This document shows, piece after piece, positions 1 to 49,743 of a DNA stretch of 59,137 nt; the first letter of the stretch is position 1, and every line of letters starts with the position of its first letter. The DNA comes from Actinomycetospora sp. (GTDB lineage: Bacteria > Actinomycetota > Actinomycetes > Mycobacteriales > Pseudonocardiaceae), in the NCBI GenBank assembly GCA_029266415.1, contig JAQSWW010000010.1, positions 1 to 59,137 on the forward strand. The letters run 5' to 3'. The notes beneath the pieces are model-generated. The model worked only from the letters and a program-made list of their open reading frames with translations, made no database searches and was not told the DNA's origin. The translations under genes were made by a program, and so were the position numbers.

Positions 1-589
1 GAGCGCTCGCGGCGACGGTGCGGCGTCCGGGCAGGCGCGCGCACAGCGGCGCGGCGGCCAGGGGGAGCAGGGCTCCGGCGAGCAGCACCGAGGTCCCGCC
101 GAGCGCCTCGTAGGCCCACACCCCGCCGCTGAGCAGCGCGAGCTGCGGCAGGCCGACGGCGAGCCCGTAGACGCCGGTGGCGCGCCCGCGGCGGGCGGGC
201 GGGGCGAGGTCGGCGATGAGCGCCGCGCCGGTCACGGTGACCAGGCCGAAGCCCAGCCCGCGCACGACCGCCACCGCGAAGAGCACCGGCAGCGACGCCG
301 TGGCGACGAGCGCCACCGCCGGCGCACCCAGCGCCAGCACGCCGGCGACCATCCCGGCGCGCGACCCCACCCGGCGCAGCACGGCGGGGACGGCGAGCTG
401 CGCGGCGACCGTGGCCGCCATGAACACGCCGGTGGTCGCCCCCGCCGCCCCGGGGGACGCGCCGCCGGCGGTGGCGTGCAGCGGCACGACGGGCAGGAGC
501 AGCGCGTAGCCGCCGAAGGCGAGGACGGTGGCGGCGAGGACCGCGACGAACGGCGCGGACCAGAGGACCGCGGGGCGCGGCGTGCTCAG
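1..589 (-). CDS. MFS transporter, C-terminus off the window edge
   Basis: Fragment of a major facilitator superfamily membrane transporter; the 196 visible codons cover about TM1-TM6 and run off the left edge. The arginine-rich cytoplasmic loop between TM2 and TM3 (residues 71-78) and a second one, PPARRGRATG (130-139), fit the family. The start is placed at CTG 589..587, which overlaps the TGA of the upstream pterin dehydratase (CTGA). A TAG lies directly before that CTG, and the next ATG/GTG/TTG in frame is codon 35, which would remove TM1. Substrate cannot be inferred. The family call is firm; the CTG start is inference. Confidence 0.8.
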   Translation of the reverse strand, partial: MSTPRPAVLWSAPFVAVLAATVLAFGGYALLLPVVPLHATAGGASPGAAGATTGVFMAATVAAQLAVPAVLRRVGSRAGMVAGVLALGAPAVALVATASLPVLFAVAVVRGLGFGLVTVTGAALIADLAPPARRGRATGVYGLAVGLPQLALLSGGVWAYEALGGTSVLLAGALLPLAAAPLCARLPGRRTVAASA

Positions 590-888
590 CTAGCGCCGCG
601 TCGGTCGAGGACCTCGGAGATCTTCCCGGCGAGGTCGGTGTCCTTGGCGGTGAGCCCGCCCTCGGAGTGCGTCGACAGCTTGAACTTCAGGCTGTTGAAG
701 CGGATGTCCATGTCCGGGTGGTGGTCGGCCTCCTCGGCGAGCTCGGCCACCTCGTCGACGGTGGCGACCGCCTCGCGGAAGCTCGGCAGCTTCGCGAACC
801 GCACGATCGTCGCCCCGTCCTCGCGCTGCCAGCCGGGCAGACGCTCGAGGGCCTCGCTGATCGCGTCCTCGTCCAGGAGTTCGGCCAT
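586..888 (-). CDS. pterin-4a-carbinolamine dehydratase
   Basis: A 100-residue protein of the PCD/DCoH family, the usual length. It dehydrates 4a-hydroxytetrahydropterin during recycling of the pterin cofactor (EC 4.2.1.96). The active-site signature DHHPDMDI (residues 55-62) supplies the paired histidines and proline, followed by the third histidine in STHSEGG (H74) and the conserved TxKDxxLA tail (80-87). ATG at 888..886 is chosen; an in-frame ATG three codons earlier (897..895) is equally possible. It overlaps the MFS gene behind it by 4 nt, so the two are probably cotranscribed. Actinobacteria often carry this gene without an obvious aromatic hydroxylase, so the exact role is unclear. Confidence 0.93.
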   Translation of the reverse strand: MAELLDEDAISEALERLPGWQREDGATIVRFAKLPSFREAVATVDEVAELAEEADHHPDMDIRFNSLKFKLSTHSEGGLTAKDTDLAGKISEVLDRRGAS

Positions 889-23159: not shown

Positions 23160-23325
23160 GGCCCTTCCGCGCCCCTGACCGGGGCGGACACGCCCGGATG
23201 ATCGCTCCGGTGTCGTGCCGGTCGGGCGCATGGTGAAGAATCGTCGCCTGTCACACGGCGCTCGCTCCCCTGACCCCCGTGCGGGTGACGGGGGCGGGGA
23301 GACGCAGCTCGCGGAGGGAGCAGAC

Positions 23326-23493
23326 ATGGCGGCCATGAAGCCCCGGACCGGCGACGGTCCCCTCGAGGTCACCAAGGAGGGGCGCGGCATCGTGATGCGC
23401 GTGCCGCTCGAGGGTGGGGGGCGCCTCGTCGTCGAGATGACCGCGGACGAGGCGGGCGACCTGCGGGAGGCCCTGCAGGGCGTGGTCGGCTGA
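23326..23493 (+). CDS. DUF3117 protein
   Basis: 55-residue protein highly conserved across Actinobacteria (Rv1211-like), matching the usual length and sequence (MAAMKPRTGDGPLEVTKEGR, then RLVVEMTADEAGDL). No function is established for the family; the compact beta-alpha pattern suggests a small domain that binds a partner. ATG 23326 follows CGGAGGGAGCAG. Its TGA overlaps the CTG that appears to start pepA, so the two are probably coupled. Confidence 0.93.
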   Translation: MAAMKPRTGDGPLEVTKEGRGIVMRVPLEGGGRLVVEMTADEAGDLREALQGVVG

Positions 23494-25088
23494 GCACCCC
23501 GACACGCGACGGGCGGGGCGTCGCGGAGGCGGACAGGGGCACACCGCCCTTCGCCGCCCCCGCGCTGCCCACCCCGCTCGCCGAGCTGGTCACCACCGAG
23601 CCCGACGGCCCCGACGGCGCCGCCGGACTGCGGTGGCGCCGTCGCGACCGGTCGGCCGGCGACGGCGACCCCGGCGACGGCAACGACGAGACCCCCTCCA
23701 CCGACACCGACGACCCCGCGCCCGAGGAGGTCGTCGACGGCGCCCCACCCGGGTGGAAGCCCTCCGCCGGCGCCGTGACCGCGCTCGCCGGGCCGCCACC
23801 GGCGCGCTGGATCGTCGGCGTCGGCGAGGGCCGCGAGCGCGACTGGCGCGCCGCCGGCGCGGCCGCCGTCCGGGCCCTGCGCGACGCCTCCGCGGCGGCA
23901 CTCGGGAACGGCCACGGGGCCACCGACCCCGCGCCGCGGGTCGCCGTCCTGCGCCCCGACCGTCCCGCGGACGCCCCGGACACCGCCGCCGACTGGGCGG
24001 CGCTCGCGCTCGGCGTCGTCCTGGGTTCGCACCGTTTCGCCGTGCGGTTCGAGGCCCGGCCGGCGCTGCGGGTGCACCTGCACGTCCCCGCCGAGCACCG
24101 GGACGCCGTCGACCGGGCCGTCGAGCTCGCCGCCGCCACGGCGCGGGCCCGCGACCTCGCCGACACGCCCTCGGGCACCAAGTCGCCCGACTGGTTCGCC
24201 ACCACCGCCACCGACCTCGTCGCCGACGCCGACGGCCTCGGCGTGACCGTCCGCGACGAGGCCTGGCTCGCCGAGCAGGGCTTCGGCGGCGTCCTCGCCG
24301 TCGGGGGCGGCTCGTCGCGCCCGCCCCGGTTCCTGGAGCTGACCTGGTCGCCGCCGGACGCCGCGGGCGAGCACGTCGTGCTCGTCGGCAAGGGCATCAC
24401 GTTCGACACCGGCGGCATCTCGATCAAGCCGAACGCCGGCATGGCCGACATGCGCACCGACTGCTCCGGCGGCGCCGCGGTCGTCGGGGCGCTGCGCGCG
24501 CTGGCCCGGCTGCGGGTCCCCGTGCGCGTCACCGGGCTCGTGCCGCTCGCCGAGAACCATGTCTCGGGGTCGGCGTACCGCCCCGGCGACGTCGTGCGGC
24601 ACCGCGGCGGCACCACCACCGAGGTCACCAACACCGACGCCGAGGGGCGCATGGTGCTCGCGGACGCGATCGCCTACGCGCTCGACGAGCTCGCGCCGGA
24701 CGTCGTCGTCGACGTCGCCACGCTCACCGGGGCGATGAAGGTCGCGCTCGGCGTGCGCACCGGCGGGGTGTTCGCCAGCTCGCCCGCCCTGCGCACCGCG
24801 CTGGTCGAGGCCGGCGCGGCGACGGGGGAGGCATGGTGGCCGATGCCGCTGTCGGCCCACCACGACGCCGACGTCGACTCGACGATCGCCGACGTCCGCC
24901 AGGCCCCGGGCGGCCCGGGCGGCATCGCGGCGGCGCTGTTCCTGCGCCGCTTCACCGCCGGGCGGCCGTGGATCCACCTCGACATCGCGGGACCGGCGCG
25001 CTGCGACGGCCCGCACGAGGAGGTCGCCAAGGGCGCCACGGGCTTCGCGACGCGCACGCTCGTGGAGTTCTGCGCCTCCCGCGGCTGA
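23490..25088 (+). CDS. pepA: leucyl aminopeptidase (M17 family), probable CTG start
   Basis: 532-residue zinc/manganese aminopeptidase releasing N-terminal residues from peptides. The catalytic domain is clear: VGKGITFDTGGISIKP, MRTDCSGGAAVVGAL, and the signature NTDAEGRMVLADAI. The N-terminal domain (residues 1-170) only fits if translation begins at CTG 23490, overlapping the DUF3117 stop (CTGA). The frame is open with strong GC3 coding bias from there, yet the first ATG/GTG/TTG in frame is GTG 23775 (codon 96), inside the domain. N-terminal residues about 55-85 are an acidic disordered linker. A GTG 23775 product would also keep the active site. Confidence 0.9.
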   Translation: MSTPTRDGRGVAEADRGTPPFAAPALPTPLAELVTTEPDGPDGAAGLRWRRRDRSAGDGDPGDGNDETPSTDTDDPAPEEVVDGAPPGWKPSAGAVTALAGPPPARWIVGVGEGRERDWRAAGAAAVRALRDASAAALGNGHGATDPAPRVAVLRPDRPADAPDTAADWAALALGVVLGSHRFAVRFEARPALRVHLHVPAEHRDAVDRAVELAAATARARDLADTPSGTKSPDWFATTATDLVADADGLGVTVRDEAWLAEQGFGGVLAVGGGSSRPPRFLELTWSPPDAAGEHVVLVGKGITFDTGGISIKPNAGMADMRTDCSGGAAVVGALRALARLRVPVRVTGLVPLAENHVSGSAYRPGDVVRHRGGTTTEVTNTDAEGRMVLADAIAYALDELAPDVVVDVATLTGAMKVALGVRTGGVFASSPALRTALVEAGAATGEAWWPMPLSAHHDADVDSTIADVRQAPGGPGGIAAALFLRRFTAGRPWIHLDIAGPARCDGPHEEVAKGATGFATRTLVEFCASRG

Positions 25089-47946: not shown

Positions 47947-49743
47947 CTACTCCGGCGCGGGGGCCGATGCCGCCGCGGGGACGGTCTCGTCCGACCCCGC
48001 GGTCGACCCGGCCTCCGAACCGTTCGACCGCGACCCGGCGCCGCGGCCACCGCGACGACGGCGGCGGCGGCGCCCGCCCGAGCCGTCGCCCTCGGCGCCG
48101 TCGGTGCTGTCGGCGGCGGCGTCGGCGGCCTCGGGGGCGTCGGGGGTGTCGCCCGGCTCTCCGCCCGTGTGCGGGCCGTCGGTGCCCTCGCCGGCCACGA
48201 CCTCGCCGGCGCGCCGGCGGGTGCGTGAGCGGCGGCGCCGGCCCCGGCCGGGACCGGTCTCGTCGCCGGCGCCCTCGTCGGCCGCGACGTCCTCACCCGG
48301 GCCGGAACCCGTGCTGGTGCCCGAGCCCCCGCGGGTGCGGCCACGCGAGCGGCCGCGGGTGCTCTCGCGTGTCTCGCGCACCGGGCCGTCCTCGGCCTCC
48401 TCCTCGGCGGGGCGGCGACGGCGCGCGACGCGCCCGCTCGCACCCTCCGGGATGTTCATGTCCGCGTAGAGGTGCGGGGAGTTCGAGTACGTCTCCGGCG
48501 GCTCGGGCGCGCCGAGCGCCAGGTCGTCCGAGATGAGCTTCCACTTGGGGAGGTCGTCCCAGTCGACCAGCGTCACCGCGATGCCCGCGAGACCGGCGCG
48601 ACCGGTGCGGCCGATGCGGTGGATGTAGGTCTTGGCGTCGTCCGGGCACTGGTAGTTGATGACGTGCGTGACGCCCGTGACGTCGATGCCGCGGGCGGCC
48701 ACGTCGGTGCAGACCAGGACGTCGATGCGCCCGTCGCGGAACGCCTTGAGCGCGTGCTCGCGGGCGCCCTGCCCGAGGTCGCCGTGCACGGCGCCGACGG
48801 CGAACCCGCGCTCGGCCAGCTCCTCGGAGACCTTGCTCGCGGTGCGCTTGGTGCGGGTGAACACCATCGTCGGCCCGCGGTCGGTGGCCTGCAGGGTGCG
48901 GGCCAGCATCTCGACCTTGTCCAGCGCGTGGGCGCGGTAGACGAACTGCGCGGTCTTCTCACCGATGGCCGAGGAGTCGACCTGCTCGGCGCGGATGTGC
49001 GTCGGTTGCGTCAGGAACGTGCGCGACAGCGTGATGATCGGCCCCGGCATGGTGGCCGAGAACAGCATCGTCTGGCGCTGCGCGGGCAGCATGCCCAGGA
49101 TGCGCTCGACGTCGGGCAGGAAGCCGAGGTCGAGCATCTCGTCGGCCTCGTCGAGGACGAGCCCGCCGATCTTCGCCAGCACGAGGTGTCCCTGCTGGGC
49201 GAGGTCGAGCAGGCGGCCCGGTGTGCCGACGACGACGTCGACGCCGCGCTGCAGGGCGGCGATCTGGCTCTCGTAGGGGCGCCCGCCGTAGATCGACAGG
49301 ACGCGGGTGCCGAGGTCGGCGCCTGCGGCCTCGATGTCCTTCGCGACCTGCACGCACAGCTCGCGGGTGGGGACGACGACCAGCACGCGCGGCGTGCCGT
49401 CGTCGGTGGGGCGGCCGAAGCGCTGCAGCAGCGGGACGCCGAAGCCGAGGGTCTTGCCGGTGCCGGTGCGCGCCTGGCCGATGAGGTCGTCGCCGGCGAG
49501 GGCCAGCGGCAGCGTCAGCTCCTGGATGGCGAACGTGCGCTCGATGCCGGCGCGGGAGAGCGCGGCGACGATGCCGGGGTCGACGCCGAGCTCGGCGAAG
49601 GTGGGGGAGTCCTCGGCGACGGGGGCGTCGGCCTTCAGCGGCTCGACGACCGGCTCGTCGTCGGTGTCCCCGTGGGGATCGGACGTGGCGGTGTCGGTGG
49701 TGACGGTGGTCAGGGGTCTGCCTCTCTCGCGGCTCGTGCGCAC
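47947..49743 (-). CDS. rhlE: DEAD-box RNA helicase RhlE
   Basis: 598 residues. DEAD-box motifs: Q motif FAELGVDPGIV..RTFAIQ, motif I QARTGTGKT, PTREL, DEAD in LVLDEADEMLDLG, SAT (motif III), then MVFTRTKRTA and the motif VI HRIGRTGRAGLAG. The C-terminal 150 residues are Arg/Gly/Ser-rich and RNA-binding. It probably remodels rRNA and mRNA at low temperature. GTG 49743 (MRTSRERGRP) is used, but CTG 49713 (LTTVTTDTATSDP) lies within the family start; no ATG is near. Confidence 0.94.
   Translation of the reverse strand: MRTSRERGRPLTTVTTDTATSDPHGDTDDEPVVEPLKADAPVAEDSPTFAELGVDPGIVAALSRAGIERTFAIQELTLPLALAGDDLIGQARTGTGKTLGFGVPLLQRFGRPTDDGTPRVLVVVPTRELCVQVAKDIEAAGADLGTRVLSIYGGRPYESQIAALQRGVDVVVGTPGRLLDLAQQGHLVLAKIGGLVLDEADEMLDLGFLPDVERILGMLPAQRQTMLFSATMPGPIITLSRTFLTQPTHIRAEQVDSSAIGEKTAQFVYRAHALDKVEMLARTLQATDRGPTMVFTRTKRTASKVSEELAERGFAVGAVHGDLGQGAREHALKAFRDGRIDVLVCTDVAARGIDVTGVTHVINYQCPDDAKTYIHRIGRTGRAGLAGIAVTLVDWDDLPKWKLISDDLALGAPEPPETYSNSPHLYADMNIPEGASGRVARRRRPAEEEAEDGPVRETRESTRGRSRGRTRGGSGTSTGSGPGEDVAADEGAGDETGPGRGRRRRSRTRRRAGEVVAGEGTDGPHTGGEPGDTPDAPEAADAAADSTDGAEGDGSGGRRRRRRRGGRGAGSRSNGSEAGSTAGSDETVPAAASAPAPE

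Follow-up and report, generated by a model that had tools for sequence, protein, structure and literature searches.

A candidate CTG start codon at the junction of a pterin dehydratase gene and an MFS transporter gene in Actinomycetospora

At one end of a contig from Actinomycetospora, a soil-bacterial genus, an MFS transporter gene follows the gene for a pterin-4a-carbinolamine dehydratase (PCD), and its frame offers a usual start codon (ATG, GTG, or TTG) only well inside the coding region, which raises the question of where its translation could begin and by what route. One candidate is a CTG that overlaps the PCD stop codon. Bacteria very rarely start a gene at CTG, and gene finders restricted to ATG, GTG, and TTG do not propose such starts. 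Figures quoted in PMC11497404 put CUG at 0.86% of AUG output and at 0.024% of bacterial starts, and the start-codon reconstructions outlined in PMC5622118 record a switch from AUG to CUG in 2 of 61,358 AUG starts. A Streptomyces lividans reannotation (PMC8079986) reports ATG, GTG, and TTG starts only, and the selection and reporter experiments in Mycobacterium smegmatis, as outlined in PMC4633059, found CTG neither enriched nor selected. We conclude that the MFS gene is probably real and of full length, and that it would start at CTG 589-587 by termination-reinitiation. A CTG start kept genus-wide through changes at the junction would offer a natural experiment on whether a terminating ribosome is less strict about its start codon.

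Where translation of the transporter can begin

The window, by which we mean the whole stretch of 59,137 nucleotides analyzed, is an entire contig (C249), one of 306 in its assembly. The features at the junction are as follows:

2 to 589, minus strand: 5' part of the MFS transporter gene (Pfam MFS_1, E = 6.9e-16; residues 18-183 match profile positions 2-170)
485 to 487, minus strand: GTG (codon 35), the next usual start, where TM1 (GGYALLLPVVPLH) ends; rejected as the start on the basis of coding constraint in codons 9-34 and of homologues outside the genus
586 to 888, minus strand: PCD gene, the upstream partner of MFS, from ATG at 888 to TGA at 588-586 (Pfam Pterin_4a, E = 1.2e-26)
587 to 589, minus strand: CTG, the presumed MFS start codon, which overlaps the PCD stop at 586-588 as CTGA; an in-frame CTG is present within -4 to +7 nt of this stop in each of the 17 genus loci
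590 to 592, minus strand: in-frame TAG adjoining the CTG, which closes the MFS frame on the upstream side

On the minus strand, the junction reads ...GGC GCT AGC TGA GCACG..., the PCD protein ending in ...RRGAS. Since TAG 592-590 directly precedes the CTG, the MFS frame cannot start upstream of 589, from which the first codons are CTG AGC ACG CCG. The profile match to MFS_1 (PF07690) includes TM1, and two full-length relatives match from profile position 2 (E = 5e-25 and 7e-28). Beyond codon 35, further usual in-frame starts in the window are a GTG at codon 55 and an ATG at codon 57. A sequence-only reading of the same DNA had described a TAG followed by CTG across the PCD stop, a next usual start 35 codons on, and first codons nearly identical to those of pepA. 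Direct reading of the sequence bears out these points; the GTG at 487-485 is indeed codon 35, and pepA begins CTG AGC ACC CCG.

The MFS gene leaves the contig at base 2, with 196 codons present in the window. MFS codons 135-196 recur at 93% identity at the end of another contig, C99 (locus L002, positions 1501-1688), within a 281-codon open frame; this partial copy likely reflects a strain mixture or an unjoined contig end of the assembly.

The interval in which translation can begin was delimited by the codon pattern of 16 aligned sequences (G002 was omitted as nearly identical to G017), divided into eight from the first set of species and eight others (G001, G003, G007, G009, and G013-G016). 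In codons 9-34, differences at codon positions 1/2/3 were 0.088/0.034/0.261 in the former group and 0.128/0.087/0.279 in the latter, a third-position excess that resembles the later part of the MFS gene. Codons 1-8 lack a coding pattern (0.414/0.523/0.397 in the first set), implying that they form a free tail or are partly untranslated. With codons 9-34 constrained and codons 1-8 not, the start falls between codons 1 and 9. This interval in the window contains CTG at codon 1, ACG at codon 3, and CTC at codon 9, and the CTG at codon 1 appears to be the best candidate. Since CTG ranks first or second in frequency among the Leu codons, its mere presence is weak evidence. The near-cognate ACG at codon 3 is shared by our genome and G008, and in G005, G006, G008, and G011 a second CTG lies at or near the codon 9 Leu, indistinguishable from the first as a start.

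Conservation of the junction within the genus

A gene search covering 61 genomes, 18 of them Actinomycetospora (family Pseudonocardiaceae), recovered the PCD-MFS pair in 17 of the 18 genus genomes, our own included, the exception being G004 (83% complete); because the genus genomes are related, these and the following counts are not independent. The position of the in-frame CTG relative to the PCD stop was -4 nt in nine loci, +1 in two, +4 in four, and +7 in two, and the stop and CTG form a true NTGA overlap, with the spacing of a coupled pair, in 9 of the 17, the window among them. In 14 of 17 loci, the 40 codons that lead up to TM1 contain no ATG, GTG, or TTG. The other three have a usual start nearby (GTG in G009 and G015, TTG in G013), each beside a CTGA overlap.

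The CTG concerned is not the same in every species. It is followed by AGC or ACC in the first set, made up of our genome and G002, G005, G006, G008, G010, G011, G012, and G017; a different CTG, at alignment codon 9 and 1 to 4 nt behind the PCD stop, is found in G001, G003, G007, G014, and G016. The codon thus varies but its distance from the PCD stop is kept, so that what is conserved is a coupling distance rather than one fixed codon. The first usual start past codon 9 is codon 35 in our genome, codon 22 (a GTG within TM1) in G005, G008, G010, and G012, and alignment codon 55, beyond TM1, in G001, G003, G007, and G016. In 5 of the 17 loci (G017, G002, G010, G012, and G007), CTG is the sole codon that differs from ATG by a single base in the stretch from 10 codons upstream to codon 9.

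As a control, we used the MFS family outside the genus, comprising 63 loci, of which 62 were usable once L115, with an N-terminus that failed to align, had been set aside. In the stretch that runs from 40 codons ahead of codon 9 to codon 10, a usual start was present in 62/62 outside homologues versus 3/15 named genus loci, which overlap with the numbered genomes and are not additional evidence. A PCD gene stood no more than 1.5 kb from MFS in 15/15 of these named loci versus 0/63 of the others. Lack of a usual start thus accompanies linkage to PCD. A comparison of 60 window genes with their syntenic relatives gave 73 cases lacking a usual start near the N-terminus among 749 comparisons, and MFS topped the list, with 13 of 15 orthologues affected. 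Several other window genes have two to seven such comparisons, most of which probably reflect an assumed start placed too far upstream.

Route of initiation and competing explanations

Close spacing of stop and start is a known setting for translational coupling, and NTGA is described as the commonest such spacing (PMC12548453; for coupling, also PMC6728339). In the coupled NTGA pairs treated in these two papers, stop and start likewise overlap or lie a few nucleotides apart, and downstream translation is expected to depend on the upstream gene. The present pair differs in that N is C and that 14 of 17 loci have no usual start before TM1. Ribosomes or small subunits terminating at the PCD TGA (588-586) may remain on the mRNA and restart at the overlapping CTG with the ordinary initiator tRNA, in which case the first MFS residue would be formyl-Met despite the CTG codon; relatives would use whichever CTG falls within roughly -4 to +7 nt of their PCD stop. 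We infer from the sequence comparisons that CTG is the codon used and reinitiation the route, the latter being favored because it uses the one conserved feature, distance to the PCD stop. Given the output quoted for CUG in PMC11497404, transporter output would be expected to be low relative to that of PCD.

Actinobacteria provide a precedent for the route. In Mycobacterium tuberculosis, the overlapping reading frames of the ppe2 uORF and PPE2 are described as undergoing termination-reinitiation (PMC11260477). That pair sits behind a riboswitch and also yields a frameshifted fusion, whereas the relative frame of PCD and MFS is not conserved. Two other ways of initiating at CTG were set aside. 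The anticodon-arm pattern with three G-C pairs was matched with zero mismatches in 18 of 18 genomes, which speaks against a special initiator tRNA. Leaderless initiation is unlikely, as the site lies directly behind PCD and CTG failed as a leaderless start in the M. smegmatis work outlined in PMC4633059.

The alternative that survives best retains the near-cognate start and replaces reinitiation by the same ribosome with independent initiation, once PCD translation has unfolded the junction. RNA unfolding is treated as an accepted alternative model in PMC12548453, the CTG lies within the main hairpin region of the window's own fold, and GGAGTGATC precedes the CTG in G017 and G002. However, folding was unremarkable: in the 8 of 17 loci folded, no conserved RNA structure at the junction stood out beyond shuffled sequences (z-scores of -1.44 to +1.79). 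A Shine-Dalgarno match of at least 4 nt is likewise absent from positions -22 to -4 of the CTG in 12 of 17 loci, the remaining five having weak matches (GTGATC within GGAGTGATC in G017 and G002, GTGAT in G011, GATC in G001, and TAAG in G016). The distance between stop and CTG, moreover, is held to -4 to +7 nt. We regard independent initiation as unlikely, although it keeps a modest share of our belief.

The start could also be another non-standard codon near the junction, which in the window would be the ACG at codon 3 or the CTC at codon 9. Codons 1-8 are unconstrained, ACG is present at codon 3, and codon 9 encodes Leu in 16 of 16 aligned sequences, all of which would suit such a start. Leu at the codon 9 place, however, is also seen in many homologues outside the genus with a usual start further upstream, and CTC and ACG are poorer start candidates than CTG. 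We consider a start at either codon very unlikely.

PCD and MFS might instead be fused by frameshifting at, or suppression of, the PCD stop, a reading to which the frameshifted product seen alongside reinitiation for the ppe2 uORF (PMC11260477) lends some plausibility. Against it, a TAG stands immediately before the CTG in the window, and the frame of MFS relative to PCD is 2 in nine loci and 1 in eight. As the relative frame differs among species, a conserved frameshift or readthrough fusion is excluded, and fusion in any form strikes us as highly improbable.

Initiation at the GTG at 487 would employ the earliest usual start in frame, leave the first 34 codons untranslated, and truncate TM1. 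The coding constraint on codons 9-34 leads us to reject it, as do the relatives in which the next usual start is found beyond TM1, at alignment codon 55 (G003, G001, G007, and G016), and the 62 outside homologues with a usual start upstream of TM1; hardly any credence is left for a start at codon 35. A sequence or assembly error, or a decaying pseudogene, might be suspected from the fragmented assembly and the 93% identical partial copy at the end of C99, but it is the least credible explanation, being refuted for the genus by the equal absence of usual starts in 13 other genomes and opposed by an MFS frame that is open and constrained.

With CTG reinitiation as the preferred reading, the junction can be placed among reported cases. 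In the account given in PMC9597629, the M. smegmatis polyprenyl synthetase starts at a CTG with Ser as the next residue, and an N-terminal peptide supports this start. Together with the failure of CTG to be selected in the reporters of PMC4633059, this indicates that starts of this kind are known and rare. As far as our literature searches show, a coupled pair whose CTG start extends through a genus is a new instance.

CTG starts elsewhere in the genome and the family

The sequence-only reading had suggested that CTG coupling may be a regular, underannotated start in this genome, and had proposed a search for NTGA overlaps at which only CTG would serve. We surveyed 378 kb of our genome and 400 kb of G003 (0.78 Mb in all), finding 167 in-frame, same-strand NTGA junctions, in which N was G in 74, A in 44, T in 3, and C in 46. 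C is common as a third base, so CTGA junctions are common and the motif by itself means little. In 45 of the 46 CTGA junctions, a usual start lies within 25 codons on either side; pepA is the one exception. CTGA was accordingly rejected as a mark of a CTG start. MFS itself falls outside this survey because the gene leaves the contig. In a survey of coding potential, 7 of 329 genes in our genome and 2 of 355 in G003 lose coding signal without a well-placed usual start, some of the flagged genes having a usual start slightly upstream and some resembling assembly frameshifts; this survey is not sensitive, as rhlE passed it. CTG-dependent starts are rare in these genomes, and the suggestion that CTG coupling is a regular start is not supported.

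The pepA junction comprises the following features:

23490 to 25088, plus strand: pepA-like leucyl aminopeptidase gene, read from the CTG at 23490 (Pfam Peptidase_M17, E = 8.2e-113)
23491 to 23493, plus strand: TGA stop codon of the DUF3117 frame that ends at pepA (Pfam DUF3117, E = 6.8e-28)

The DUF3117 gene (window positions 23287-23493) lies directly before pepA, with a CTGA overlap in nine of nine close species. The CTG at 23490-23492 overlaps its stop, and the first usual start in pepA comes only at codon 96. Orthologues of pepA were found in 16 of 18 genomes, G004 and G013 yielding a paralogue only, and CTGAGC is kept at the junction in all nine species of the first set. The suggestion that pepA is a second CTGA case is supported, with CTG required in four of the nine (our genome, G010, G012, and G011), where a usual start is lacking before the PTPLA core; five have a GTG before it. 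In the remaining seven species, GTG or ATG stands at this site or close to it. Residues 51-95, which precede the first usual start in our genome, display a weak third-position excess (0.290/0.301/0.379), making pepA a less firm case than MFS.

A third possible case had been noted at CTG 49713, in a gene with the following features:

47947 to 49713, minus strand: rhlE-like DEAD-box RNA helicase gene (Pfam DEAD, E = 3.5e-46; Helicase_C, E = 1.5e-33)
49711 to 49713, minus strand: presumed CTG start of rhlE, 7 nt after a Shine-Dalgarno-like motif in 18 of 18 genus genomes
49721 to 49728, minus strand: Shine-Dalgarno-like GAGAGAGG of rhlE (pattern match at 49711-49728)

In each of the 18 genus genomes (L187-L204), the rhlE CTG follows GAGAGAGG or GAGGAAGG after a gap of 7 nt. 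In 30 genomes from 29 other genera of Pseudonocardiaceae (L247-L276), the codon at this place was CTG in 23, ATC in 6, and TTG in 1, with no ATG or GTG; L248 and L249 fit both ATC and CTG and were counted as CTG. Among 23 genomes from other families of the order (L337-L359), it was CTG in 11, ATG in 3, TTG in 1, and ATC in 1, with no candidate in 7, most of which have ATG or GTG by eye; the rhlE counts rely on a loose list of Shine-Dalgarno-like motifs picked after viewing the sequences, and those at the order level may include chance matches. Such interchange of start codons is the behavior of a true start. Most genus genomes have in-frame usual starts further upstream, 10 codons away in five of them (L187-L191), and our own rhlE has a GTG at that distance, so only some genomes, G016 among them, leave no alternative to the CTG. 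In G065, G031, and G085, no usual start was found between an in-frame stop and the helicase domain. We judge rhlE to be a likely third CTG start, and taxonomically the widest. Its Shine-Dalgarno-like leader and lack of a stop overlap mean that it is not an instance of coupling, the part of the earlier suggestion that fails. A literature search found no paper on a CTG start in rhlE, which is not proof of absence.

The gene infC served as a positive control. In 16 readable genus genomes (L360-L375), it has ATC in 15 and ATT in 1, behind a GAGGAG motif, and an infC fragment from our own genome (L377) also shows ATC, the start codon given for Streptomyces infC in PMC5472188. Many of these genes have an in-frame GTG further upstream, 13 codons from the RIN motif in five.

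Streptomyces sigR (GTC) and infC (ATC), repressed by IF3, are presented in PMC5472188 as actinobacterial non-canonical starts missed by annotation. The codons of MFS, pepA, and rhlE, in contrast, are mainly CTG. A conserved start other than ATG, GTG, or TTG, as in this class, is predicted for MFS in 14 of 17 loci and for rhlE in 18 of 18 genus genomes and 29 of 30 family genomes (CTG or ATC). We tentatively propose, while thinking it rather unlikely, that Pseudonocardiaceae keep a small set of genes with near-cognate starts, whose output would be set by the level of IF3 or by initiation fidelity. The set would comprise infC (ATC), rhlE (CTG or ATC) as a new infC-like member and, in Actinomycetospora, MFS and, in one clade, pepA with CTG; stop-overlap coupling would then be a second way for a CTG start to function. 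If selection holds rhlE at CTG or ATC, start-codon control of the IF3 type would extend to a helicase. The annotated N-termini of transporters, peptidases, and an RNA helicase may be truncated or wrong in these genomes.

Two sites recorded during the survey, at L148:2686 and near 35109 in L155 (L155 being joined with L156), are genes seemingly split by an assembly indel. At two CTGA junctions, L151:6659 (minus strand) and L142:2381 (plus strand), coding signal is seen from the CTG and the next usual start lies 9 to 11 codons on, with L142 also having a GTG 20 codons upstream; both are possible further CTG starts.
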